A stretch of DNA of 64,000 bases from Bryum argenteum (taxonomy: Eukaryota > Streptophyta > Bryopsida > Bryales > Bryaceae), in NCBI GenBank assembly GCA_037043015.1, contig CM073322.1, positions 817,601 to 881,600 on the forward strand, written 5' to 3'. Under the pieces are notes generated by a model, which saw only the letters and a list, made by a program, of their open reading frames with translations, was not told where the DNA came from and ran no database searches. Of this stretch, positions 2,181 through 36,868 are shown in pieces (within the stretch, counting starts at the first letter, position 1; each line of letters opens with the position of its first letter). The translations under genes were made by a program, and so were the position numbers.

Positions 2181-2749
2181 TTATATATTCCAACTGTGAA
2201 AGTATCCACCAAACCATTTCTTTTGCATAAAGTACACTACCCATAAACGATGTAGTAAAATAAAAAACCCATCTTTCTTGAATTGGTGGGACAAAGGCAT
2301 GTCTTCCTTTCCAAATTCCAATACCAGAGATTTGCATTGATTCTAAAGATACCATCAAAAAACAAGTTTTATATCAACAATAATAAAATCAATCATTCAT
2401 GTTACAAGTTTAGAAGTAGATAAATGCAGGCAGATACAATAAAAGAGGATATGCAATCTACTTGCGGAAAGGCATTCCTGATTGAACATTACAATTCACC
2501 CACTATCATTAGTGTGCCACTCATGTATCATATTTTAAAGAATCGGAGATGGTGGGTGTAAATTAATCTGTAAATTCTTTGCTTGCAGCATCATTAATGA
2601 AATTCTTATGTGCAAGACATACTGTTGATTATCCCCTAAAGGAGAACCCCAACAGTGTCCTCCGGACGGTCATGGCCATATCTGAAATTTGTGGACAAAG
2701 TTTTTCAATTGGACAACTTGCTTTGACAATTTGCTTGGACAATGAGGGA

Positions 2750-3483
2750 TAAATAGATAAATAGAAACTCCTGTCCTTTCTAAGGGGCCGGCGTGAATGA
2801 AGTGTCTGTTCGTAATGCTAATATCCCAATGGCCACCGGACAAGGGGAATTTAGAAAAATACTACTTCCCCCTCTCGAGGGTGGACACTATAACTACGCT
2901 AATTTCTAGCCTAGTTACTAGTGCCTTGAAGTCTATACTTGACATAGTATCCCTCCAAAGGGCTTTGAGGTACCTATACAACAAGGTCCAAGGACCTCCC
3001 ATAATAGTTGGGTGGACTATAGTGGTGAGCACCACGCCGGCATGGGGAATAGAACCCACGACCTCCTCATTGGGGGCCTAAGACCTAACCACCAAGCCAA
3101 GGCTTGTGGTGCCTTCATTTGGGATAGACACATAGAAACTCCGGTCCCTTTCTCAAGGGCCGACGTGAATGAAGTGTCCATTCGTAATGCTAATAACCCG
3201 ATGCCCACTAGATAAGAGGAAATTGTGACAATACTACTTCCCCCCTTTGAGGGTGGACGCTATAAGTAGGCTAGTTTCTAGCTAGTTACTAGTGCCTTGA
3301 AGATATTTGACATAGTATCCCCCAAAGGGCTTTGAGGTTCCCATACAACAAGGTCCTAGGAACCCCCACCTTAGTTGGGTGGACTATGGTGGTGAGCTCG
3401 ACGCGGACATGGGAAATAGAACTCACGACCTTCTCGTTGGGGGCCATGAGTCCCAAGCACCAAGTCAAGATATGTGTTGCCTT
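2750..3483 (-). mobile_element. tRNA-derived SINE, tandem dimer
   Basis: Two head-to-tail copies of one family (about 2750-3112 and 3113-3483) lie on the minus strand. Read on that strand, the head has an A-box-like TGGCTTGGTGGTTAG and a B-box-like GTGGGTTCTATTCCC (compare the tRNA GGTTCGANNCC), then a body and a tail of TCTAT-type simple repeat. A perfect 12-bp duplication, GACAATGAGGGA, flanks the whole dimer at 2738-2749 and 3484-3495. Related copies lie near 12.0, 18.0 and 43.6 kb. Several short open frames here are by-products of the repeat. Confidence 0.75.
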
Positions 3484-3621
3484 GACAATGAGGGACACTT
3501 AATATGGAGAGTCAAGGCCAATAAAAGTCCAAGCCAATTCACTCACATTTTGAGCCCCATTGGCTCCATGGGCCACTTGGAGAACACATTAAACAATTAA
3601 TAGAAAGGTGGCCACTTCCCC

Positions 3622-3985
3622 CATGTGTAAAGCCCTTGGGGCCGATTTGTAGTAGGAAAAACAAGGCCATGGGGCCAATTCGTATCACTAGCTACATTCC
3701 ATGATTTTGGTTTGTTCACATTAAGATATTTTAGTGATATAAAGATTTTGTAATGAAATCAAGCAACGGCCTCTAGCATGAATTTGCCTTCCATGCTTGA
3801 ATTTCCCAACTTTTGGAGTGCGGGCGGTGTCATAAATTGTCCCCCATTCATCATAATATAATTCCAAAAAATTGACCTTAACTCTCAATGTTAATTCCTT
3901 CGGGTCAATTTCAAGAATTGGACCAATTACAATTATAGAGGATTCGGCCATGAATTGACCCCTTGTGTAAAGCGGCCTTGAGATG
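3622..3985. mobile_element. possible diverged MITE
   Basis: The left side (ccatgtgtaaagcccttggg) and right side (ccccttgtgtaaagcggcc) resemble the CTTTACAC ends of the neighbouring elements, and part of the interior matches about 1900-1940. I could not define a target duplication, so the limits are approximate. Confidence 0.35.
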
Positions 3986-10606: not shown

Positions 10607-10702
10607 CCGGTTATCGATCCGTCCCAGTTATCGATCGGTCCGGGATATCGATCCGTCCCAGTTATCGATCTGTCCGGGTTATCGATCCGTCAGGGTTATC
10701 TG
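10607..10702. repeat. 17-bp short tandem repeat (ttatcgatccgtcc type)
   Basis: About five units of roughly 17 bp (34-bp higher period), built on the palindromic core ATCGAT with the phrase gttatcgatccgtccc. A shorter, more degenerate version is at about 17840-17905. In both D blocks it lies several hundred bases upstream of the minus-strand acidic gene. Confidence 0.7.
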
Positions 10703-12001
10703 CAGCCGTCGGAGAGGCTCGTGGCAGTGGCAGTGGAACGTGATAATGGATAAAGGATAATGGTGAAGGTGGGTGATGCTGCTCATGCGATGGCCAAATA
10801 TCCTTGTTACTTGGTAGTAAGATTTTTATCTTAAAGTGTCTTAACACTCATGTGTAATTTTACATTTTCAGGATATGTTACATGTAAAACCATATTCTTG
10901 TTATTATAATTACTAGTATGCCCTCTTGACGTTGTCACGCACACTTAAATTCTTGTCCCTCTTGTTTTTCTGCTAAGATATAATTAGGTCATTTTAGCAC
11001 ACCACCCCTAAGAGCCATCCTTGGATTAGGGATGGGGATGGTTGAAGGAGCCCCATAATTTTAATGTCTTGGTTGAAAAAGCCTAGAAGTGTGCTCATAG
11101 AGTAGTTCAGACAACAAGGTCCAATTTGAATTCAAAATTATCAGAAATGACCTAAGGGGTCAACTTGTAAAATCCTGCGATTCAGAAGAAAAGCCCATTG
11201 ACAAGGGCAAACGGCTCGTACGGGCAAAAGACAATGATCCCTCTCACTTGGTCCTCCTACAGATCTCTGTAAATCACTGCTACGAGCGTTTCTCGGGGCA
11301 AGGGAAGAGGAGGGGTAAAAAGCCCCTAAATTTTTAATGTGTAGGCTTTGAATACAAAGGAGTTCTAGGCCTCTCGAGTAATTTCATGCCGTAGGCCCCA
11401 TTTTTGAATTCAAAATTATCAAAAACAACCATTAGAGGTCTAAATTTAAAAAAAAAGTAGGGATTTTGAAGAAAAAATTCCATTAGCTAATGGAGGCTCT
11501 CAGGAGTGTTGGTTGCACTTGTTTACTTCCCCCCTTCACCTACAATACCCATGTTTCCCGTAGTAAGACTGGTACTACAAGAAAGCATACATTGATGAGT
11601 GGTGATGCTGTGAATGTACTTGACCCCTAAAGGTGAGTGAGGCCCACATCGAGTCGATCGGACTTTGGTCAACCTCTCACTTACTTGTTTTAGATTGCAT
11701 GAACTTGGAACCTTTTCCATCACCTTTTCGGAAAGTCATCTCATGCTCCAAAATTCCTTATACTTCATGAGATATTTACGGTCAAAGTCTGAAAAAACTA
11801 GTCGAAATTTGCCCAAAATTGATTAAAACGCAGAAAAGACTTCCAAAATTCACACAAAAATTGAGATTTTAATTATGTTCAATTATTGTTTCATTTTTTT
11901 TTAATTTTTTTTTTTTTTATTAATCTTTTTTTCCCTTCTTCACATGTAGAAACGGTAATAAGGCATGATTTCACCATTTGGATTTTCAATCTAGTATTAA
12001 T

Positions 12002-12292
12002 GTCGGCCTGGTGCTCACCACTATAGTCCACCCAACTATTGTGGGAGGTCCTTGGATGGTCCTTGTATGGGTACCTCAAAGTCCTTTGGGGGATACTATG
12101 TCAAGTATCTTCAAGGCACTAGTAACTAGGCTAGAAACTAGCGTAGTTATGGTGTTCACCCTCTGAGAGGGGGAAGTAGTATTGTTCTAATTTCCCCTTG
12201 TCCGGTGGCCATCGGGATATTAGCATTACGAACGAACACTTCATTCACGCCGGACCCTTAGAAAGGACCGGAGTTTCTATCTCATATCTACT
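12002..12292 (+). mobile_element. tRNA-derived SINE, 5'-truncated copy
   Basis: Plus-strand copy of the family seen at 2750. It starts inside the head (gcctggtgctcaccactata) and ends with aggaccggagtttctatctc. The A-box part is missing. I could not define a target duplication. Confidence 0.65.
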
Positions 12293-12794
12293 TAGCCGTA
12301 GGTGCCCTGAATGCGGTCACGACGCCGAGGAGGCGGACAACGATCGAGCAGCCGATCTGCTCCCAGACGTTATCGTTGTCAATGAGGAAAGAAGGAGGTT
12401 CATTTCGGTAGGCCAGGGTAATCGCTGTTGAATAAACAAGCCGTCGTCAATTCTTGGTCATCACCACGGAAGTCAGTACCGTTGTTGCCATTTGCCTCGA
12501 GACTCGACGGCGAGCAGGCGGAGAACGATCGAGAAATAGAAATTGAGGTCTATCTCATAACCAACCCAAAATCTGGACCCTTCTAAACAGTCTGGTACAT
12601 AATCTGAAAACCTAGTACGTGATTTTTTCTTTCACTCAAGCTTTAGCTTGTTGCAGTCAGTGATTCCATTTCGCCAATCAATCCGGTAATGAAGATGTTC
12701 CACACTGTCACTTCTGAGTATCACAACCTGTTTTCTCTTTTGAAATGGTGTGCAAGGAGCACATAGCTTGCATCACTTTTTACATTAGGTTGTG

Positions 12795-13417
12795 GGGCAA
12801 TGGTAAGCTTGGGGTATCACTTTTTGGACACACTAATTAGGTTATTTTTATTGAAAGCCTCCAAAGTTTGTCTAATTTAGTCATTTTAATCAAGTAAAAA
12901 GACCCTAAAATAGAAAATAAAATATCATGCACCTCACTGAAATCAAAGTATATATGCCTATAGATTTTCTTTTAGATTTTTTATTTTTTTTGGATCCATT
13001 CATAGATGAGGGAAAAAGTGTTGAATTTGGGGATTTGCAGGCATTATAGTGCACAATGAATTAATTTTTTTATTATTAAATAAATTATTTTGTATTCTAT
13101 ACAAGAAGATGTAGGTCATATTCAAAAATCATATTAAAATAAAAATGGTTGATATTCCATTTGCTTGATTCTATGGATTTTAGGTTATTGGGACATGACT
13201 TACTTTTTCAACTAAAAAATCAAATAAAATTACTTCAAAATATTTTTTTAATTTTTAATTTTTTTTCTTGATACATTATAAGTATAGACAACTAAAACCA
13301 CATCTAATGAAGTCTTATTGTATTACAGTTTAAAAATGGATATGCTTGTCACACCAGCATAGAGTGCAATTGTTCATAGGACAACCTTTTTGGGTACCCC
13401 AACCAGACTATCACCCT
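12795..13417. mobile_element. AT-rich insertion, 623 bp, unclassified DNA element
   Basis: The matching E block at 21801-21810 reads straight through ttgtgaggcacttg, so this is an insertion into an otherwise shared sequence. GTG occurs on both sides (12792-12794 and 13418-13420) and once at the empty site. The ends are weak inverted repeats: GGGCAATGGTAAGC against the complement of an end reading CAGACTATCACCCT. No coding capacity is seen. The superfamily is unclear. Confidence 0.6.
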
Positions 13418-13653
13418 GTGAGGCACTTGTAGCATAAAGTATGCTACGATAGGTCGAATCTCTGATAGAAGGTTGATTTTTAGGGATTTTTATGCTACCC
13501 TCCCCTATGCCACTCTACTGTACCACTCTCTTGGGCTAGTTTAAGGTTGTCTTGAACCAACCACGTCCTCACCTAAAATCCACCCTTCTATTGAAAATGG
13601 GGTTAATTGAGAAGGGTTGCACATAGCCGTACACACAATCTTCCTGGGTCTTA

Positions 13654-13926
13654 GAGCATGGCCATTCTTGCACTGAAAACAATAAGAAACGCAACTATCG
13701 CGTGTTTGTATTTAGGGAGGAGGGCCACCGTTCAAGCATGGAACACTATTTCCCCTGCAGGGCACACTTAAAATCCACTCGATAGAGAACACGTGGGAAA
13801 TGCAAGGAACTTGTGATGAGACCACATGCATTGTAATTATGGGTTGTAATTATGGGTGGGGTTGTAAACATATTCCGGAGGAGGTTGCTCTGAGTGTTGA
13901 TATTGAGAGCAAGAGTGGCCATGCCC
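13654..13926. mobile_element. Harbinger-like MITE in E copy 1
   Basis: Inverted ends: GAGCATGGCCATTCTTGC on the left and the complement of GCAAGAGTGGCCATGCCC on the right. TTA lies to the left (13651-13653), TTG to the right. The same insertion is present in the second E block at 22025-22397, so it predates the duplication; this copy has lost about 100 bp of interior. Confidence 0.7.
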
Positions 13927-14260
13927 TTGGGGATAGGGATTTGTGATGCCAAAGTTGACCAAATCTTAAATCTCTGCCTTTTAGAAAGACCTGATTAGAT
14001 CCATCAGATACTTATTCTGTTATTTTATGAAATGGAGTCAGAAGTGTTCGTTGCTATCACGTCTACTAGCTGCTTATTTCTGAGATGATGGTCTGTCGGT
14101 GCCCTCAACTTCGGTGGTTGCACTGACAAAGTGTTCTTTGAGGATTTAAGGAAATCAAACTCCTCTGTACGCAACGATAAGTTGGTTCTTCAGTTGTTTT
14201 AGCTACTAGATATTCATTCTAAATCTCAACTTTATTTACCTGGTAATATTACATATGTAG

Positions 14261-15324
14261 CGCGATGTGGACTTGAGGAGGGAGAAACTTCGATATTGTT
14301 ACGTAGGTGATATTTCATGTGCCATTATGAAGCTTATCGTCGAGAAATGCTCAGGGGCCTGTCGATGGCACAATTCAATCTTGAGCATGGCAGGAATTGC
14401 ATGATTGCATCTTGAATCACTGCTTCGTTCAAGTTCAAACTGGACCTTAGACCAGACAGTCAGAAGTGCTGCAATGAGAGAGTTTGCACTGACAGATCAA
14501 TCATGCGAGCACACCAATGCACCTCTCCATTCAGATATTGACAAACATTCGATATCATGTCAGAAATGTCGCTTTTAACACCTTAAGTCGGTACTCGGCA
14601 TCATTCCCATCATCAGTTCTCACTGGGGCTTCAACTACGAAGGATTCCGACTTCAGCGAAGCACGATAGCAAGCAGCCAATTAAGCTGTTACACCCTGTG
14701 ATCTTACATCCAAAAAGAATCTGTGGTACAATTCTTTCTCTAAGTCACATGGCGTATGACCTAGAGTTGCAAATACAGAAGTTTTCCTTTCTCAGAGGAC
14801 AACTTTATTGTTTGATAGCTTCTCCTAAGTCGCAAAAGCAAACAAGACAAGAATCAGAGTAATCATGTTCAGTTCAGTAAGGAGTTGTTCGTTTGCAGGA
14901 AGACCTTTCAGCGAAAAAAAAGAGTGCAGCCACCAAATGCTACACAGCTTTTTAACTTTTTCATATTATTTGCAATTAATGCAAGCTCTACATTCCCATG
15001 GCCTATTGAAGGCTAGTTTGAGCTCCAGGTGGTGCAGCCATCAGAACAAGAAAACTTGTTCACTTCAAGACATAATAAACAAAGCATAAACGAACATAAT
15101 AAACAAAGCACCATGACTATTTGCATGCACTTTCCCCACAAGTTGAGGATTATAACTCCTTCGTCAGAGAGAGTTACTTCCAGTTAAATTATTCGTTCTT
15201 GGTGGTGAACCTTTATGGTGTGATTAGCACCAAATTTGCATGAGAAGTTGAACCCGCCACCACCCGATGAACCTAGACGATTCTGAAATCTGCTCGCTTT
15301 TGAGGACACACTATCCCGTTGCAC
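14261..15324. other. linker between E1 and D2, no confident gene
   Basis: The phrase ttgtttgatagcttct (14810) and its surroundings recur near 6230. On the minus strand 14590-14690 contains a decayed exon-like piece that matches 31780-31860. The stretch 15145-15324 recurs at 22750-22945 and on the minus strand reads a serine/glycine-rich frame with FNFSCKFGANHTIKVHH. Nothing complete can be called. Confidence 0.4.
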
Positions 15325-15711: not shown

Positions 15712-17037
15712 TCACCACCCATCCGTGCCAACCAATTCGGGAAATGACAAGACCATGTTAAAGTCCTCAGAAGACAGCTCTCCAACAACGATACCCCAGC
15801 CAAAATCCACCTCCCCTCTTTCCTCATCAGAAACTATCATGTCTGGGAGGAGGTCGGCAGTCACTGCGTCAGCTGCCGATTCAGCAGAATCGTCGGCTGG
15901 TGCGTCTTCAGGATCAGTAACCTCTGTGGTGTCACCAGCAGTGTTCGGCTCCCAATTTGCAACATTCATCAGTGGCACACTGTCGACGGCCACTGCTGGT
16001 CGCCCGACAATTGACTCAGCTGTAGCTCCGCCTGCACCAGTGGCGTGGCCGATGTAAGTTAGAAATTCCACAGGCATTAGTATTGTCACATGCTCCTCTC
16101 GGCCACTTTCAGTTCTTGCTGTTCGATCATTCTCGTCCCCCTCCGCCTTAATGCCCGACTCAACGGCAGCAAATTCCACATGATCTTCCCGATCACTTTC
16201 ACTTCTTGCTGCTCGATCATTCTCGTCCTCCTCCGCCTTGATGCCCGACTCAACGGCAGCATATCCAACACGATCTTCCCGATCGATTTCACTTCTTGCT
16301 GCTCGATCATTCTCGTCCTCCTCCGCGTTAACGCCCGACTCAACGGCAGCAAATTCAACATGATCTTCCCGATTACTTTCAATTCTTGCTGCTCGATCAT
16401 TCTCGTCCTCCTCCGCCTTGATGCCCGACTCAACGGCAGCGTATCCAACATGATCTTCCCGATCACTTTCACTTCTTGCTGCTCGATCATTCTCGTCCTC
16501 CTCCGCGTCAACGCCCGACTCAACGGCAGCAAATTCAACATGATCTTCCCGATTGCTTTCACTTCTTGCTGCTCGATCATTCTCGTCCTCCTCCGCCTTA
16601 ATGCCCGACTCAACGGCAGCAAATTTAACATGGTCTTCTCGGCCGCTTTCAATTCTTGCTGCTCGATCATTCTCGTCCTCCTCCGCCTTGATGCCCGACT
16701 CAACGGCCTCAAATTTAACATGGTCTTCTCGGCCGCTTTCAATTCCTGCTGCTCGATCATTCTCGTCCTCCTCCACCTTAATGCCCGACTCAACGGCAGC
16801 AAATTCAACATGTTCTGCTCGGCCACTTTTAGTTCTTGCTGCTCGATCGTTCTCGTCCTCCTCCACGGCGACAACGCCCGCATCACTGGCGACAACACCC
16901 GCATCACTGGCGCCAACGCCCGCATCACTGGCGCCAACGCCCGCATCACTGGCGCCAACGCCCGCATCACTGGCGCCAACGCCCGCATCACTGGCGCCAA
17001 CGCCCGCATTGACGGCGACAAGGATAACGCTATCCAT
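15712..17037 (-). CDS. acidic tandem-repeat protein of an unrecognised family, 441 aa
   Basis: Function unknown; I recognise no domain. The frame starts at ATG 17037 and ends with TGA. Layout: residues about 8-60 are a 7-residue minisatellite (GASDAGV type); about 60-330 are nine copies of a 30-residue unit built on EEDENDRAAR, a serine/glycine linker, REDHVEF and AAVESGIKA; the single-copy C-terminus includes AVAVDSV, GDTTEVTDPED, ADLLPDMIVSDEERGEVDF, GWGIVVGEL and SFPELVGTDGW. It is strongly acidic, probably disordered, with no signal peptide or membrane segment. Because the 90-bp period is a multiple of three, other frames on both strands are also open; this one is chosen because its unique C-terminus is conserved in frame at 29336-29740 and readable at 9413. 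Expression is unproven. Confidence 0.6.
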   Translation of the reverse strand: MDSVILVAVNAGVGASDAGVGASDAGVGASDAGVGASDAGVGASDAGVVASDAGVVAVEEDENDRAARTKSGRAEHVEFAAVESGIKVEEDENDRAAGIESGREDHVKFEAVESGIKAEEDENDRAARIESGREDHVKFAAVESGIKAEEDENDRAARSESNREDHVEFAAVESGVDAEEDENDRAARSESDREDHVGYAAVESGIKAEEDENDRAARIESNREDHVEFAAVESGVNAEEDENDRAARSEIDREDRVGYAAVESGIKAEEDENDRAARSESDREDHVEFAAVESGIKAEGDENDRTARTESGREEHVTILMPVEFLTYIGHATGAGGATAESIVGRPAVAVDSVPLMNVANWEPNTAGDTTEVTDPEDAPADDSAESAADAVTADLLPDMIVSDEERGEVDFGWGIVVGELSSEDFNMVLSFPELVGTDGW

Positions 17038-17948
17038 CGTGGTATCGAAACGAGTGCTGACTCTTAGTCTAGGTCCTATAACGTATGTAGAGCCTGCTCG
17101 AGTAGCTTTTCAAGCAGTCGTCTCGTTCGAAATCGGTTTGGTTCGTCACGCACTCACGCGCGAACGCAAACTAAAAACAGAACGAAACGGCTCTGATACT
17201 TGCAAGCTAGCTTATCACAGGTCTGTCTTCGGGAAGGAGGGTCAAGAAGACACCACGAATCGCCTCCTCTCTGATACAGCAGACCTGCGTCTTGCAAGGA
17301 CTGCGTTCCGGACTACTAGTACTGAAACTGCATGAATCGCCTCGCCCCCACCTCCTATCCTACACACCTGCGTCTTGCAAGGGCCCCGCTCACTGAAGAG
17401 CAACTGAGCGCCACTGCACGAAAACTTACTTGCTTCCAAACAAACTGTGTTTTTGGAGTCTAGTACTTTCCCGATAAGGGAGTTCCTAAGTACTAACTGT
17501 GTTTTTGGAGCTGTGATAAGGTAGCTTGCAAGTGTCAGAGCCTTTATATACCTCCCCGTCGAAGGCCCCTAGCCAGGTTCAAATTTTGGGATCACGGTAT
17601 AACGTAAAATGACACTGACACGTGGATCAAGGTTATTGGTTGTCATATCCGGCACGAGGAATATCAAGCTTGTCAGTATGGGGGAGCAAGTTGGGCGAAC
17701 GAGTGTCCGTCATATCTGGCATGTTGAGGCGATGGGGCGGACAAATTTGTTCCGGGCAGCCGGCTGCCTGCCCGGTTTGACATTAAGGATCGATAGCGAA
17801 CTGTCAGAGAAGAACCGTCTGGGAACCGTCAAAGGGATCTGGGTTATCGATCCGTTCCGGTTATCGGTCCGTCCTAGTTATAGATCCGTCCGGTTATCTG
17901 CAGCCGTCGGATAGGCTCGCGGCAGTGGCAGGGGAACGTGATAAAGGA

Positions 17949-18264
17949 GATAGATAGATAGAAACTCCGGTCCTTTCTAAGGGGCCGGCGTGAATGAAGT
18001 GTCCGTTTGTAATGCTAATATCCCGATGGCCACCGGACAAGGGGAAATTAGAACAATACTACTTCCCCCTCTTGAGGGTGGACACTATAACTACACTAGT
18101 TTCCAGCCTAGTTACTAGTGCCTTGAAGATACTTGACATAGTATCTTCTCAAAGGGCTTTGAGGTACCCATACAACAAGGTCCAAGGGACCTTCCACAAT
18201 AGTTGGGTAGACTATAGTGGTGAGCACCACGCCGGCATGGGGATTAGAACCCCACGACCTCCTC
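17949..18264 (-). mobile_element. tRNA-derived SINE, 316 bp, with 12-bp target duplication
   Basis: Minus-strand copy of the SINE family, cut off within the head (starts ggaggaggtcgtgg in its own sense) and ending in a (CTAT)n tail. CGTGATAAAGGA flanks it at 17937-17948 and 18265-18276. The paralogous D1 block at about 10736-10760 reads through without the SINE and so serves as an empty site. Confidence 0.85.
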
Positions 18265-19985
18265 CGTGATAAAGGATAATGTAGATGGTAGGTGATGCTG
18301 CTCATGCGATGGTCAAGTATCCTTGTTACATGGTAGTCTGGTTTTTATCTTAAAGTATCTTAACACTCTTGTATAGTTTTACTTTTCAAGATATGTTACA
18401 TGTACACTCATATGCTTGTTATTATAATTACTAGTATGCCCTCGAGGCGTTTCTACGTACACTGAAATTTTGATATCTTGTTCCTCTTGTTTTTCTTGCT
18501 ATATGTATAATTAGGTCATTTTAGAGACCATCCCTAAGAGCCATTCTTGAAGGATGGGAATGGGTGAAGGAGCCCCATGATTTTAATGTATTGGTTGAAA
18601 ATGCCTAAAAGTATGCTCATAGAGTAAGTCGGACGACAAGGTCCAATTTAAATTCAGAATTATCAAAAATGACCTTACGGGTCAAATTGAAAATTCCTGC
18701 GATCCATAAGAAAAGCCCATTGACATGGGCCGCTGGCTCGTACGGGCAAAAGACAATGATCCCTCTCGGGCTCTCACTTGGCCCTCTCACCTACGGATCA
18801 CTGTAGATCACTGCCAGGAGCGTTTCTCGGGGCAAGGGAGGGAGGGGTAAAGAGTCCATAAACTTTTAATGTGTAGGTTTAAAATGCAAAGGAGTAGGCT
18901 ACCCGAGTAATTTCAGGCCGCAAGCCCCATTTTTGTATTCAAATCTATAAAAAACAGTCCTCAAGGGTTAAATAAAATTGTCTTATGGGGGCTCCGAGGA
19001 GTGCGGTTGCACTCGTTTACGGCCCCCCTCACCTACAATACCCCATGTTTCTTGTAGTAAGACTCAAACGACATGAAAAGCGTACATTGATGAGTGGCGA
19101 TGCTGTGAATGTACTTGACCCCTGAAGGTAAGTGAGGCTCAAATCGGGTCGGTTGGACTTTGGTCAACCTTTGACCTTCTAGTTTTAGATCGCATGAAGT
19201 TGAAACCTTTTACACATTGTAGAGTTTTTTAATACCCTTCCAGAAAGTCATCCCATACTCCAAAATTCCTTATACTTCATGAGATATTCACGGTAAAATT
19301 TTGAAAAAACTCTTTGAGATCTGCCCAATATCAATTTGAAACTTCAAAAAAAACTTCAAAAATTCACACAAAATTTGAATTTTTAATTTTGTTCAAGTTT
19401 TTCTTTTTTTTCTTTTTTTTTCTTCACATGTAGAAACAATGATAAGGCATTATCTCACTGTTTGGACTTTCATGTAGATTTTTTCATGCTATTTTAATTG
19501 TTAAAGATTAGGCCTTGTATTCAAAATTTCAGCATACCTCCATCACTCCATGTGAAAGATAAGCATCTTTTCAAGTTTTATATGTGGCCTATGAGGGTAA
19601 AAATTACATATACATATTCCTTACTCACCTAGGAACAAGAATTTGAAGAGCCTCATGTCAACTCTCTTTTCAAAAATGGTACTTTTGGACCCAAAACTTT
19701 ACTCTGTCATTCTACAACATGGTAAAGAACTTTGTTTTCAATTTTGAATGTTATGATCTCACAAATGGTGAACAATTTGAACCCAAGATTTGGTGTACAT
19801 GTCCATGTACAAGTTAGGTACCAAGATATGGTTACATACCTCAAAGCTTATTAAAAACTGAAAATTTGCATCTTGCATCAAAAGAGTTTTTATTTGTTTT
19901 GAGGTTGTTCACAAGGTTAAGATCAGACAATTTCCACTCTACCATTTCCGATTAGAGCTGCAGGTGGAAGACCATGAGGGACTTA

Positions 19986-21327
19986 TGGCCCTCGCACATG
20001 AGGGTTTTGGGCTCAGCCTGGGCCTGGCCAGGGCCCCCTATTATTGGAAGGGGCCTGGTTGTGCCTCGCGGCAGGTGGCTGCTGGGCAGCCATCCCAACC
20101 CCGCCGCCAGCCCTCCCAATTTACCCCAGCCCCCCGACCCCTAGCCCCCCTTACCCCTAAATAGACCTAATGAATTAAAAGTTACACATAATTTTGATTT
20201 TTCAAGAAATAAATAAATTTAATGGTTCACAAAAAATAAAAGAAATGTACAAGAATTAGACAAAGAAATGTACAAGAATTAGAATTTCAATTAGAAAATA
20301 TTTTATTAGAAGAAAAGTTTGAAAGTTTAGGCTTTTCCCGATTTTTACAGAATAGAATCTCAACTATCTAATAACCCTATGTTATGTATTGGAGGATGCT
20401 TTCTTTGGGACCGTATTAGTTTATTATTTCGAAATCATCACTTTATTTTTTCATGTCAAAACTTAGTTATAGATGAAGAAATGCTAAGAAGATTATATGT
20501 TACTCAGGGAGCAAGATGAGAACAAGAAAAATCTAGTTGAAGTCAAAAAATTAAACAATTTTTTCTTCATCGAGGGTATGGTCGAAATTTCATAAATGAT
20601 CTTTCCATAAATTGTTGGAATCAATCACCTTTATTGAAGAAAATAGTTTTGAAAATTTTAAGTGTATTGAAAAAATTGGTATTCAATTAAAATGCCCACA
20701 AGTATTTACTCCTGTATATTTATATCAGAGTTGGTTAATTGAAAACCCACTAGAAAATAAGACTCGAATTATTAAATAATCAACAAAGATGGTTAAAATT
20801 TAATAATTTATTATTTAACGATTCTTTTGTTTATTCTACTGTTTTAGAAATTTATTAATACTTTTGAAAAAATAAAATTGCATCAAAGTTTATTGAATGA
20901 AATGACAAAAAGATTACTTTAGAGTGGTTCAAGTCACTGGAACTTTGAATAATAGTGAAAATTTAGATAAGAAGGGAGGAGAAATATTTTTTATAAATCT
21001 TGGAATAGCTAATAAATTTATAATAGAAATGATGGAATCATAAGAAAAATCGGTAGGGAAGGGGATGGGAAAATAAAAAGGGATGGGGACAATAATGAAG
21101 AGAAGAAGAGAGAAGAGGTGGGGTCAAAGGGGTGAGGGTAAGTGTAGTTAAGGAGTAGTTAAGGGGTCACTTTTGGCTTTTGTGGTTTGGGCAAGTTGGT
21201 GGAGAGTCGGGCAGGTGCCGCTCGACTTGGCTGAGTAGGCTGGTAGCCTCGGAGAGGGCTCACGGCAGGCTGAAGCTAGCGGAAGAGCCCTTGCTCAGCC
21301 CTCCGTCAGCCCCATGTGCACAGGCCA
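19986..21327. mobile_element. TTA-flanked non-autonomous element carrying plastid-like DNA, 1342 bp
   Basis: The ends are imperfect inverted repeats: TGGCCCTCGCACATGAGG on the left, and TGGCCTGTGCACATGGGG as the complement of the right end, with inward similarity around gggctcagc. TTA lies on both sides (19983-19985 and 21328-21330). GC-rich shoulders surround an AT-rich core that contains a ycf2-like stretch. No transposase is visible. Inference: a Harbinger-type element that acquired a plastid segment, or plastid DNA that landed inside an existing element. Confidence 0.6.
20205..20920 (+). pseudogene. nuclear plastid-DNA insert resembling the 3' part of ycf2
   Basis: The AT-rich core translates, with several frameshifts and stops, to pieces I recognise as the C-terminal region of plastid Ycf2: DEEMLRRLYVTQGAR (from 20472), IKQFFLHRGYGRNFINDLS, PVYLYQSWLIENPLE, then NNQQRWLKFNNLL and a final EMTKR-type piece near 20900. 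The seed-plant equivalent has the ADEEMSKGLL, SIYKRWFIKN, NRQRWLRTN and DQMTKTLLRKRWL phrases in the same order. The high AT content and sequence suit a bryophyte-like plastid. It is broken and cannot encode Ycf2. Confidence 0.7.
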
Positions 21328-21330
21328 TTA

Positions 21331-22575
21331 ACCGTAGGTGCCATGAATGCGGTCACGAGGCTGAGGAGGCGGAAAACGATCGAGGAGCCGATCTGCTCCT
21401 AGACCTTATCGTTGTCAATGAGGAAAGGAGGTTCATTTCGGTAATCGCTCGTGAATAAACAAGCCATCGCCAATTCTTGGTCATCACCACGGAAGTCAGT
21501 ACCGTTCATGCGATTTGCCTCGAGCCTCGACGGCGAGCATGCGGAGTACGATCGAGATATAGAAATTGAGGTCTATTTCATACCCAACCCAAAATCTGGA
21601 CCCTTCAAAATAATCTGGTACGTAATCTGAAAACTTACGTGATTTTTTCTTTCACTCGAGCTTTCGCTTGTTGCAGTCGGTGAGTCCATTTTGCTAATCA
21701 ATCTGGTTTCGAAGATGTCACCTCGTCTGAGTACCGCAACCAGTTTCTTTTTTGAAATGGTGTGCAAGGAGCACATTGCTTGCGTCACTTTTTGCATTAG
21801 GTTGTGAGGCACTTGTAGCATGAAGTATATGTAATAGGTCGAACCTCTGATAGAAGGTTGATTTTTAGGGACTTTTATGCTACCCTCCCCTTATGCCACT
21901 CTCCTGTACCACTCTCCTAGGCTAGTTTCATGTTGTCTTGAACCAACCACGTCCTCAACTATAATTTACCCCTTCTATTCATAGGCAGTTGCACATTGCC
22001 GTTACACAATCTTCATAGGTCTTAAAGCATGGCCACCCTTGCATTGAAAACAATAAGAAACGCAACTATGGGGTGTTTGTATTTAGGAAGGAGAGCCACC
22101 ATTCCATGCTTGAACATTATTTCCCCTACAGGGCACACTCAAAATCCACTATGTGCAAAAAAAACTCTATGCAATCTTCTCCAGACACTGTTTTTGTTGT
22201 TACAAGAGAAGTGGGTGCTAAAAACAAGAGGAGAAGACGAGCCACTTGGAACTCGGAACTCATGCGGCAGGGAGCACGTGGGAAAGATGGGGAACTTGTG
22301 ATGAGAACACATACATTGTAATTATGGGTGGGGTTGTAAACATATTCCAGAAGAGGCTATTCTTAGTGTGATATTGAGAGCAAGAGTGGCCATGGCCTTG
22401 GGGATAAGGATTTGTAATGCCAAAGTTGACCAAATCGTAAATCTTTGCCTTTTAGAAAGACGTGATTAGATCCATCTGATACTTGTTTTGTTAATCTGCT
22501 GCTATCACGTCTATTAGGTGCTTATTTTCTGAGATAATGGTCTGTCGGTGCCCCCAACTTCGGTGGTTGCACTGT
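21331..22575. repeat. E block, copy 2, with acidic-gene remnants
   Basis: Matches 12297-14160. It opens with the same internally deleted acidic-gene remnant on the plus strand (21350-21440; EEAENDRGADLLLDLIVVNE). It lacks the 623-bp insertion and carries the fuller version of the shared MITE (22025-22397). Confidence 0.65.
22025..22397. mobile_element. Harbinger-like MITE in E copy 2
   Basis: Same insertion as 13654-13926, about 100 bp longer. Left end aagcatggccacccttgc; right end is the complement-type gcaagagtggccatggcc; TTA on the left (22022-22024), TTG on the right. Confidence 0.65.
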
Positions 22576-22749
22576 AGATGTCTAAAAACACCTCATATGT
22601 TGAATTTGGACAAAATTTGAGTACTATATGGTCATTCAAAATTTCCATGATTGGTTGCTTTGTCCAGTTTCAGTGAAGTACCCGATCTGTGTGTACATTT
22701 AGCTCGACTCAAGCTAAAATTCCCAAAATCATTGAATATTCCCATTATA

Positions 22750-22945
22750 ACGAAATCCGTGTTAGGATTATAACTCCTTCAGCTGAGAGAGATTTACTTC
22801 CCATTCGATTTTTAGATCTTGGTGGTACCTTCATGGTATGAATAGCACCGGATTTGCATGAGAAGTTGAACTCGCCACCACCCGATGAACCTAGACGATT
22901 CTGGAACCTGGACACACTATCTTCGCTTTTGAGGACACACTATCC
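22750..22945. repeat. third partial copy of the D-block leading edge
   Basis: Matches 15145-15324: the phrases attataactccttc, gcatgagaagttgaac and gatgaacctagacgattctg appear in the same order. Similarity fades after about 22945. This implies at least three duplication units in this part of the window. Confidence 0.65.
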
Positions 22946-23895
22946 CCCACGACTCGCAAAACTGTCTGTACGCAAAGTCGGTGGTGTTCAAGCTGAAGAA
23001 CCTCTTCAATTTTGCAGATGGAGCGGATCGGAGGAACGCAACTCTGGTGGAACTTTCCAGATTGACAAATTCCAATGAATTGGTGAGTCTGTTAAATTGA
23101 CAATAGTCCAAGTATCATATTGACACTCAGACCAAAACTCGATTATGCTGCCATTACGAAGCACCCATTGCTCTTTCCTAATGTCGGTTCCCTGCGATGT
23201 TTCCAGCAAATTGCCATTTTAAAATTAAGTTGAGGAATAGAGTAATAGGGTCATTGCGTCTAGTAGTGAACGCGACGCTAATGAACACAGGGGTACATTG
23301 GGAATCCTTGTCTGCTCACCCTCTTGCATGTTGAAATTTTCTCCTGTGAGTGGGGAAGTCATAACAGAAAGTTTTTTTTCCACACAAACAAAGAGTTTCC
23401 CGAACTGCAGAACAAGTTGAAATCAACTTCGATCACTGTCGATCTGAAGGATGAATGAACCAGTAACCTGCTCGCTTTTTTAGTTTCAGATAGCGAAGAC
23501 TAGGCTACGGAAAGTCAGCGTGCCGACCATAAACGGGCAAGACTTGCATCCATGGAAAAACATGAAAATCTCAAGTAAATTGCACTCGAATGGTGTTGAC
23601 CGTAGCCATATGCAAAAACTTATGTGTGACTATCCTCCCCAACAACTGGTGAGTTCCCTTTCCAGGATCATAATTTCACAAAGGCGTAGTACATGTTGCA
23701 CGGCCATCAAAAGAGGCTCCCTGCTCAAGATGCGTACCATCTAAAACTTGATCGCATCCAAATTACATGGGCTATGCCTATGCTCTATGACTGCTGGAAA
23801 GTATGTTTTGAGTTCCTCGCACAAGAGGAGGCTAACTTCAACACAAGAACTATAAGTTCCTGACCCACTTATTCGCCATATCTAAGGATATCTTA

Positions 23896-34909: not shown

Positions 34910-36868
34910 TCAGTAAGTGACTAAAGGTGCACGCACAGATTTCTTCCTTCCCCTCTGCTGCTTTCGGAAACGAGTTGTAAGACTCGATTTATCAGCTTCC
35001 AACATTGGTGAAGGCTCTGCAATGATGTGTGGAATCTCTGCAATGGGTCCATCCTTTGCAACAGGCACTGATGAACTTTTCACGTTAATTGAACCGGAAT
35101 CTGCGTTCCTACGTTCACACTCAGTGCAGAATTTTCCCTGCTTGAGATCGGAAATACAACGAGAGTTTGAATGACGACCTCGGGGGCACACTAAGCTACC
35201 GAAACTGGGTCTGTAAGGGAAGCCAACGGGGTTTAAACTGTGGAACCTGTTGGCTTTGTGGGAAGGGACTGATCGGAGAGATGCGACTTCTGACGGGCTG
35301 TTGAGATCAACGATTTCAGTGGTGTGCTCAACGGTATTGAAAATGGCTAATTCGTGTTCACTTACCGCAATGCAAGTGTACTCGGGGTACACAAGCAGCC
35401 CGCGTCCGCCCACCCTCTTGCGGCGCATGATCACTTCCCACGGATTGCTCTCGAGACCATCGAGGTTAAGTTTGTGAATCATAAAGTAAACCTCTCGCCC
35501 ACATTCCTGCTCGCTGAACACATACACAGAGTCACCACATTTCACAAGCTGAGAGGTTGCAAGGTGACCCATGTTGGACTCTGATGTTCGCACAAGCGGA
35601 ATGTGAAGCTTTCTGTGCTCCTGCAACCACGTCCTCTTCTTCAGGTCGTAGATGAGGATACCGCGCCCGCGGGTGTCGATGATGGCGCCACACAGAAGGA
35701 GGTCCCCGATCTGGACACCGTTCTGATACTCGTTGAGGCCAAATGGCTGGCACGGCAGGTCTGAGCCTTCGGGACACTCCCAATCTCCAGTCCTTGAGTC
35801 GTATTCTTCGGTCTTGAGCGATACATCCTCAGTGCCAGTGGCCGCACTTCCAGCCACCACAATCTTGTAGTGGCCGTCTTCGATCATTCTGAAGTGCATG
35901 AGAACTGGGTGTCGAGGATACTTCAGTGGCGGTAGAAGTTTCACCTGCCGTGTTAGTGGATTGGAAACGACGATAGATTCGCGGCCAGCAGATTTGCCCA
36001 CGTTGAAGCACACGAGACCTCCATCACCCGCCACGAGATAGTCCTTGAAAAGGTCTGGGTCGGGCGAAGGCAGAACTGTGTTTTTGGCAAAGTTGAGGGA
36101 CGGAAGGCTTTCCCATTCTCGTGTCTTTGTGTTCAGACCAACCCACAGCAAGTCATCTTTGGCATCGACCATAAAAGAAATGGGACTGTACTCACCCTCT
36201 GCCTCTGGCCGTGACTGAACGAACGCTGGGTGAGAGGAAAACTCTTTGTACCCTTTTCCCAGCTTCCCACGTAGTTGCACCGCGAAACGCCAGTCCAATT
36301 GACCGAGTATAAGGTGAATACATTCAGATGGCAATACCTCATTCGGTGGTTCCGTGACTTCATCAGGAACCACTACCCAGTCATCACTGATGTTAAGCTT
36401 CTCGCATTTCTTTCCCAATGAGCTGAGTCTTGCAAATAAGTTGCTTGATTTCGGGGATGTTGGTGCCGTACTATGCTTCAAGTGGCTCTCAACCGTGAGG
36501 CCACTTTCGCTCGAGCTCCAACTGGGTTCATCAAATGAAAATCCAGGTGATTTACCTTTGTGGCCATTTGAAATGGCTTTCTGTCCATTTGATTCGACTT
36601 TGTTTTCTTTCAGTGCTAAACCATTTGATGATTCGGCTTTATGACAATTTGATGGTGCGCCTTTGCGTCCATTTGATGATGCGGCTGTATGTCCATAGTA
36701 TGCGCCTCCATTTGAGGATTCGGCTTTGTCTTCATTTGATGCGGCTTTGTATCCGTTCGAATCGCCTCGGTGTCCGTTTGGAAGCTGTGAAGGCTTCTCG
36801 GTATGAGGAGGGATTTTCGACGGAGTTCTCGAATTTGCCGAGCTGGACACATGAATCAATTCATTCAT
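34910..36868 (-). CDS. F-box protein with kelch/F-box-associated beta-propeller region, 652 aa
   Basis: Likely substrate receptor of an SCF (SKP1-CUL1-F-box) ubiquitin ligase; the substrate is unknown. It is one uninterrupted exon with ATG at 36868. Residues 1-140 are low-complexity, with repeated SNGxKA-type phrases, probably disordered. The F-box is about residues 176-218 (PNEVLPSECIHLILGQLDW, then SSHPAFVQ). From about 225 to 550 there are repeated beta-strand segments such as DDLLWVGLNTKTREWESLP, ESIVVSNPLTRQVKLLPPL and GILIYDLKKRTWLQEH, typical of plant F-box/kelch proteins. The C-terminal 100 residues have a small cysteine cluster (CxxC in FCTECERR) and a basic end (KQQRGRKKSVR). The frame's length without stops and its domain order make the call strong; the exact subfamily is uncertain. 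Confidence 0.85.
   Translation of the reverse strand: MNELIHVSSSANSRTPSKIPPHTEKPSQLPNGHRGDSNGYKAASNEDKAESSNGGAYYGHTAASSNGRKGAPSNCHKAESSNGLALKENKVESNGQKAISNGHKGKSPGFSFDEPSWSSSESGLTVESHLKHSTAPTSPKSSNLFARLSSLGKKCEKLNISDDWVVVPDEVTEPPNEVLPSECIHLILGQLDWRFAVQLRGKLGKGYKEFSSHPAFVQSRPEAEGEYSPISFMVDAKDDLLWVGLNTKTREWESLPSLNFAKNTVLPSPDPDLFKDYLVAGDGGLVCFNVGKSAGRESIVVSNPLTRQVKLLPPLKYPRHPVLMHFRMIEDGHYKIVVAGSAATGTEDVSLKTEEYDSRTGDWECPEGSDLPCQPFGLNEYQNGVQIGDLLLCGAIIDTRGRGILIYDLKKRTWLQEHRKLHIPLVRTSESNMGHLATSQLVKCGDSVYVFSEQECGREVYFMIHKLNLDGLESNPWEVIMRRKRVGGRGLLVYPEYTCIAVSEHELAIFNTVEHTTEIVDLNSPSEVASLRSVPSHKANRFHSLNPVGFPYRPSFGSLVCPRGRHSNSRCISDLKQGKFCTECERRNADSGSINVKSSSVPVAKDGPIAEIPHIIAEPSPMLEADKSSLTTRFRKQQRGRKKSVRAPLVTY

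Follow-up and report, generated by a model that had tools for sequence, protein, structure and literature searches.

Structure of the element and its surroundings

The window, by which we mean the whole 64,000-bp stretch analysed, spans positions 817,601 to 881,600 of C2, a 34.6-Mb contig in an assembly of 258.8 Mb and 25 contigs (G000:C2:817601-881600). The parts of the element found in it, together with a paralogue of its right flank, are the following.

12292..12805, + strand: paralogue of the element's right flank, homologous to 21328-21817 (86% identity, 514 columns)
19983..19985, no strand: left target-site duplication, TTA (3 bp), read in the window
19986..21327, + strand: non-autonomous PIF/Harbinger-type element, 1342 bp; other places in the genome hold the full-length relatives L010 (85% identity) and L011 (80%)
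19986..20000, + strand: left terminal inverted repeat TGGCCCTCGCACATG, the start of the element
20001..20157, + strand: left arm, subterminal, GC- and C-rich, recognised by its composition and its likeness to the left end of L062
20158..20919, + strand: cargo, a 3' segment of plastid ycf2 matching C12:77007-77836, its frames broken by stops and indels
20447..20919, + strand: part of the cargo common to the larger subfamily B, corresponding to plastid L034:1457-1937
20920..21058, + strand: stretch of about 139 bp to the right of the cargo, common to the cargo-less relatives L058-L061 (boundary approximate)
21313..21327, - strand: right terminal inverted repeat, TGGCCTGTGCACATG in the minus-strand reading, ending at 21327
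21328..21330, no strand: right target-site duplication, TTA (3 bp), read in the window

The terminal repeats TGGCCCTCGCACATG and TGGCCTGTGCACATG are imperfect inverses, agreeing at 12 of their first 15 bases. In 50-bp steps, the GC content was 0.62-0.76 over 20001-20150 and 0.16-0.34 over the AT-rich core, at about 20151-21050. The window copy encodes no transposase; its left end showed 79% identity over 89 columns to that of L062, a transposase-bearing element described below. The sequence-only reading of this DNA had proposed these ends, the flanking TTA pair and the limits 19986 and 21327, and when the ends were reread in the window all of these proved exact to the base. Given that it recurs at many places, the end-to-end structure is far above chance.

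A one-off plastid insert lying between chance inverted repeats was also considered, and is ruled out by the family copies.

Elsewhere in the window, a tandem array with units of about 90 bp occupies 16087-17009 within overlapping open frames of 441, 325, 311, and 260 aa, the 441-aa frame giving only a sub-threshold Pfam match, and a 652-aa open frame on the minus strand (34910-36868) matched the F-box-associated beta-propeller family PF24750 above the cut-off (E 1.9e-06). Rfam and tRNA scans of the window returned nothing that helped.

The cargo is a piece of plastid ycf2

The segment at 20158-20919 aligned to C12:77007-77836 with 84.6% identity over 831 columns and an E value reported as 0. 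C12 is a contig of 114,600 bp, separate from C2, with a Pfam Ycf2 domain (PF05695, E 3e-22), an intact ycf2 3' end, after which come trnD, trnY, and trnE, and a GC content of 0.23 in the 3 kb examined; it was taken as the plastome or most of the plastome, and its ycf2 region was annotated. The sequence-only reading had described the AT-rich core as ycf2-like and named a plastome match as the check on this, and the alignment to the assembly's own plastid contig bears the description out. Consensus sequences of the two cargo forms defined below, A (4 copies) and B (9 copies), were closer still to the plastid, with 89.7% and 94.4% identity, respectively. The piece is internal to the ycf2 coding region and stops 66 bp short of the gene's end.

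At the protein level, a family-consensus reading matched Ycf2 of PDB entry 8xku (residues 2152-2260 of 2294, E 4e-4). This check is modest, since the Ycf2 match was lost with a longer form of the family-consensus query and the broken frames of the window copy itself yielded no Ycf2 hit in the PDB; the real proof of ycf2 identity is the plastome match. Scanning the broken frames of the cargo against Pfam and NCBIfam returned no Ycf2, and a viral contig search yielded nothing that helped.

The plastid DNA adjoining the piece served as a control. Its 1,095 bp directly before the piece gave zero nuclear matches, and the 1,060 bp after it gave seven, 71-290 bp long, none of them at the listed family loci.

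Two other ycf2 sequences were noted. L041 (C7:13885000-13887800) is a free-standing, more diverged insert (81%) corresponding to plastid L034:1092-1852, with no transposon ends. The plastid contig ends (L042, C12:113200-114600) in an inverted, error-rich copy of the ycf2 3' end together with the DNA beyond it, which is probably an assembly artefact.

Family copies, target-site duplications, and empty sites

A DNA search of the same genome with the window element gave at least 72 matches (40 of 162 candidates were scored). Among the fetched loci, ycf2 sequence, whole or partial, was present at 35 nuclear places, or 34 without the free-standing insert L041; these 34 include the window copy and the partial pieces at L040 (42 bp), L043, and L046, while L048, being the same place as L028, was counted once. 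The earlier suggestion that a Harbinger-type DNA element had mobilised a plastid segment within it was therefore borne out at 34 nuclear places rather than one, and the further copies with the same ends that it had proposed to look for turned out to be many, with target duplications of their own.

Both ends were found at 22 copies, and in 19 of them the flanking 3-bp duplications were identical: TCA in 14, TGA in 2, and TTA, ATT, and ACA in 1 each, the TTA being that of the window copy. The three non-identical cases are L023, whose right end is weak, L025 (AAT/ATT), and L038 (TGA/TCA). Chance agreement of a 3-bp flank pair is about 1/64, assuming equal base frequencies. The TCA of L027 is uncertain because the right end there is a 28-bp tandem array; with this copy set aside, the count becomes 18 of 21. 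Of the carriers with more than 400 bp of cargo (n = 30), 21 had both ends, 8 had one, and L035 had none.

Two structural details were observed within individual copies. The array in L027, at about 3500-3970, gave 17 matches, most units consisting of the terminal repeat followed by TCA. The left arm of L018 holds a nested, MITE-like insertion of about 220 bp with inverted ends, starting CACTAAATAGGTAGATTAGTG.

We then searched for empty sites with the joined flanks of 13 copies, out of 18 whose flanks had been joined. Clean paralogous sites were found for L015 (L070 in C10, unbroken across the joint, with a single TCA) and for L017 (L073 in C3); both lack exactly the element and one copy of the target-site duplication. 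L021 has two related sites, L072 and L071 in C4, from which the element is absent; both are diverged at the joint. The other matches covered a single flank, except that of L020, which crossed the joint by about a dozen bases. In the window itself, the homology of the paralogue at 12292-12805 begins exactly at the element's right edge, beside a single CTTA, where the element is flanked by two TTA; this is one-sided evidence of an empty site, because another repeat replaces the left side.

The paralogue belongs to a local segmental duplication, in which window 10639-15317 corresponds to 17838-22946 in direct order, in pieces 78-87% alike and broken by repeats; the element is in one duplicate only. 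Two family copies also lie near each other in L027.

These arrangements are what favours an alternative in which the cargo spread not by its own ends but through segmental duplication or neighbouring retrotransposons: local duplication affects the window (10.6-15.3 kb against 17.8-22.9 kb), and the two copies of L027 are close together. Against it are the 3-bp duplications, identical in 19 of the 22 copies with both ends, the two clean paralogous empty sites, and the window paralogue without the element. For the copies that have clean empty sites this alternative is refuted, and as an account of the family we consider it highly improbable.

Transposase-bearing relatives and assignment to PIF/Harbinger

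An extended pattern built on the left terminal repeat gave 35 matches at 24 places, and its backwards control gave 0. Seven of these places (L062-L068) had no ycf2 nearby, so that same-end relatives lacking the cargo, whose existence the sequence-only reading had also proposed to check, were found alongside the carriers. Complete relatives at L064, L065, L067, and L068 are flanked by duplications of ACA, CCA, ATA, and TCA, respectively. Over 190 columns, the left end of consensus B was 89% identical to L062; its identity to L068 was 90%.

L062 contains a 339-aa open frame with a DDE_Tnp_4 transposase domain (L062:3029-4045, + strand; PF13359, E 7e-20) and, facing it in convergent orientation, a Myb/SANT-like frame of 300 aa (L062:4729-5628, - strand; PF13837, E 2.8e-12). 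A second Myb/SANT frame is present in L065 (2309-3208, + strand; PF13837, E 8.2e-13). No clear right terminus was seen in L062, where another family copy abuts, and the element may be inactive because its right end has been lost against that copy. No complete autonomous element was seen among the fetched family loci, and Pfam scans of the non-plastid segment returned zero families.

PIF/Harbinger elements have a two-gene layout, a transposase and a Myb/SANT protein. We assign the family to PIF/Harbinger because its same-end relatives carry DDE_Tnp_4 transposase and Myb/SANT genes; the 3-bp duplication and the short inverted ends are likewise those of this superfamily. The target differs, the usual PIF/Harbinger TTA/TAA being replaced here mostly by TCA, which is a matter of preference rather than of a strict criterion: in PMC8903248, TTA/TAA accounts for 52.4% of the PIF elements of rice and for 81.2% of those of maize. 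The original Harbinger assignment thus stands on the genes of the relatives, while TTA as a family signature does not, having been found in only 1 of the 19 identical duplications.

CACTA or another superfamily making 3-bp duplications was considered as well, and is ruled out by the DDE_Tnp_4 and Myb/SANT genes in the same-end relatives.

Two of the same-end relatives contain other coding sequence. In L063, protein-kinase fragments (2586-3547, + strand) lie between pieces of the family's left arm and are probably another captured host gene. In L066, a DUF569 beta-trefoil frame (1684-2367, + strand; E 4e-43) begins about 0.7 kb inside the family left end; the right end of this copy was not found within 4 kb.

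A single capture and two forms of the cargo

For the tree and the counts of fixed changes we used cargo matches of at least about 400 bp, 31 sequences including L041, which excludes L038 (a split match), L040, L043, and L046. L041 is among the 10 A rows of the fixed-change and CpG counts; in the tree it falls outside the 30 family copies.

The right edge of the cargo was at plastid L034:1937 in 27 of the 30 copies with more than 400 bp, the other three having it at 1932, 1938, or 1941. The left edge divides the copies into two forms. In the A form it lies at L034:1098-1112 (9 copies, the window copy included), and in the B form, which outnumbers A, at L034:1456-1458 in 20 of 21 copies, with L036 aligned from 1433. 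In the part of the cargo shared by both forms, 12 changes relative to the plastid were fixed (in at least 80% of rows) in A and B alike, and a 13th site was changed in both, but to different bases. The rate of fixed change was the same in the A-only part (8/311) as in the rest (13/480), and therefore all 840 bp of ycf2 arrived together. A maximum-likelihood tree built on the shared part grouped all 30 copies in one clade against the plastid and L041, with an ultrafast bootstrap of 99; the cargo was therefore captured once and then amplified.

Repeated, independent insertion of plastid DNA into or near a common transposon family, that is, ordinary NUPTs that happen to lie in elements, would have to produce the same right junction to the base in 27 of 30 copies, the 12 shared fixed changes, and the clade of 30 with its support of 99, and would have to spare the 1,095 bp of plastid DNA directly upstream, which has no nuclear match. 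Independent plastid inserts do exist in this genome, namely, L041 (ycf2 1092-1852) and the seven short matches to the plastid DNA downstream. As an explanation of the family, we find repeated insertion scarcely credible. That this is a non-autonomous PIF/Harbinger-type family in which a plastid ycf2 fragment was captured once and then amplified is, as regards both its identity and its spread, a reading in which we have very high confidence.

The deeper branching of A and B was weakly supported in the same tree (37-72). The pairs L036/L021 and L022/L013, with tree distances of 0.009-0.016, are the youngest. The window copy and the two relatives nearest to it, L010 and L011, carry the long A-type cargo, yet were placed among the B copies on their right part (clade support 93). 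Their position points to later reshuffling between copies, and the window copy looks like a mosaic of an A-type left part and a B-like right part. Capture took place in an ancestor of the window copy; shortening and reshuffling of the cargo came later.

Junctions and the mode of capture

The four cargo-less loci L058-L061 contain internal segments of the family without ycf2, corresponding to consensus B from 401/407 to 660/661 and then from 1124 to 1260/1262. The right end is present in three of them; no left end was found in any of the four, nor any end at all in L060. The segments which flank the cargo in the B copies lie only 3-6 bp apart in these loci. Since they are joined there, the plastid DNA entered what had been continuous element DNA.

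The junctions could be read by comparing the cargo-less locus L060 (GAGCTGTTTTTCACGAATTACTTTAGAGTGG), most B copies (GAGCTGTTTTTCAAGTCAAAAC...ATATTACTTTAGAGTGG), and the plastid (TTTTTTCACGTCAAAA...ATATTACTTAAAAATAAATGG). At the left junction of B there is a microhomology of 6 bp, TTTTTC, which extends up to TTTTTCACG (9 bp) only in L060, one of the four cargo-less loci. At the right junction the microhomology is TTACTT or ATTACTT (6-7 bp). For organelle integrants, junction microhomologies of 1-7 bp are given in PMC7037861.

Capture by the repair of a break with plastid DNA as filler fits these microhomologies and is, in our judgement, the probable mode. A break inside an element would have been repaired with a stray plastid fragment held by the short microhomologies. 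What the ancestor gained was at least plastid L034:1098-1937 (840 bp), and all 30 carriers of more than 400 bp are its descendants. We infer an original insertion longer than the B cargo because the A form keeps more of ycf2. The B form, keeping about 481 bp of ycf2 beside the original element DNA, would probably have arisen by a deletion between two TTTTTCACG repeats, one in the element and the other in ycf2; in the A form up to 840 bp of ycf2 would have been kept and the left element DNA deleted. The order of the deletions that gave A and B is likewise inferred; none of the copies examined had the intermediate structure, at least 840 bp of ycf2 with element DNA to its left and to its right. 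The transposase and the Myb/SANT protein of full-length, L062-type relatives, acting in trans, would then have moved the element by cut and paste.

Capture might instead have come about through the fusion of two neighbouring elements, the plastid DNA between them being mobilised by the outer ends. Examples are described for maize PIF and rice Mariner families in PMC8903248, and adjacent family copies exist at L027 and L062. Fusion fits less well than break repair, however, because the cargo-less relatives have the flanking segments joined, with 3-6 bp between them in all four; the junction microhomologies, too, agree with filler repair. We regard fusion as unlikely, and retain break repair as the preferred mode.

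Fate of the cargo

The reading frames of the cargo are broken in the window copy and in the A and B consensuses. Differences from the plastid were concentrated at CpG sites, amounting in the A rows (L041 included) to 103/314 as against 591/7508 at other sites, and in the B rows to 98/410 as against 678/9506, so that plastid CpG positions were altered 3.4-4.2 times as often as other positions. This raised rate of CpG change is as would be expected of methylated nuclear DNA. Judged from these features, the cargo is a decaying passenger and no working gene, and nothing here indicates a function.

A benefit of the cargo to the element, whether as a spacer or through a regulatory or small-RNA effect, could in principle account for its retention, and at least 30 forms with more than 400 bp of cargo stand against four cargo-less ones sharing the internal type, found in a search that was not meant to count them. 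The cargo-less forms were counted unevenly, and the broken frames of the window copy and of both consensuses, as well as the preferential change of CpG sites, speak against a benefit, which we consider quite improbable.

Relation to known systems

Plastid DNA often enters plant nuclei and is thought to decay at its landing site. The cargo described here resembles NUPTs in being plastid-derived, nuclear, and decaying, with short junction microhomologies, as described in PMC7037861; it came from the plastid and resides in a nuclear chromosome, apart from the plastome. An ordinary NUPT is immobile and inserted directly from the plastid, whereas this piece lies between transposon ends and was copied with target duplications, the window copy belonging to a clade of 30 with shared changes.

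The nearest parallel found among NUPTs is that of papaya rps15 (printed rsp15) on the Yh chromosome, present in 23 copies ascribed to nearby Ty3-gypsy retrotransposons according to PMC7037861. There, too, a plastid piece was multiplied in the nucleus in a way tied to transposable elements. The papaya retrotransposon is a neighbour, the link being one of proximity as that text describes it; here, the piece is inside a DNA transposon with ends, target-site duplications, and empty sites. The proximity of NUPTs to transposons is also a topic of a 2025 survey covering 30 angiosperms (PMC12572781).

Pack-TYPE elements offer the other comparison. Like Pack-PIF, as portrayed in PMC8903248, the present family is non-autonomous, has TIRs, is of the PIF type, has multiplied captured foreign coding DNA, none of it from a transposase, and has non-Pack relatives. 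The cargo of Pack-PIF elements, as that source describes them, is coding DNA of the host genome; here it is organellar, plastid ycf2 taking the place of a nuclear gene, and nuclear-type fragments, from a kinase, are present at one other family locus, L063. The favoured mechanism for Pack-PIF is the fusion of neighbouring copies, a model of Catoni et al. according to PMC8903248, whereas in this family filler repair is indicated by the microhomology and by the cargo-less relatives, in which the flanking segments are joined. The words 'chloroplast' and 'organell' each occur 0 times in the main text of PMC8903248. Among the open-licence PubMed Central matches listed, we found none that reports plastid DNA multiplied within a TIR transposon, and no earlier case of a Pack-PIF-like family whose organellar cargo was captured once and amplified; this is no proof of priority.

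Significance

One plastid piece joined a transposon and reached about thirty places in the genome, and the junction through which it entered can still be read. The plastid source, the cargo-less relatives, the junctions, and the empty sites are all found within one assembly. The case reveals a route by which chloroplast DNA can be multiplied in the nucleus, links the NUPT and Pack-TYPE literatures, and warns that counts of NUPTs can overstate the number of transfer events. A broader reading, which we put forward tentatively as possible rather than probable, is that the TIR family serves as a permanent carrier, picking up organelle DNA at breaks within its members and distributing it across the nucleus. 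If this were true, some plastid-to-nucleus transfers that have been counted separately in plants would be one transfer, transposed.
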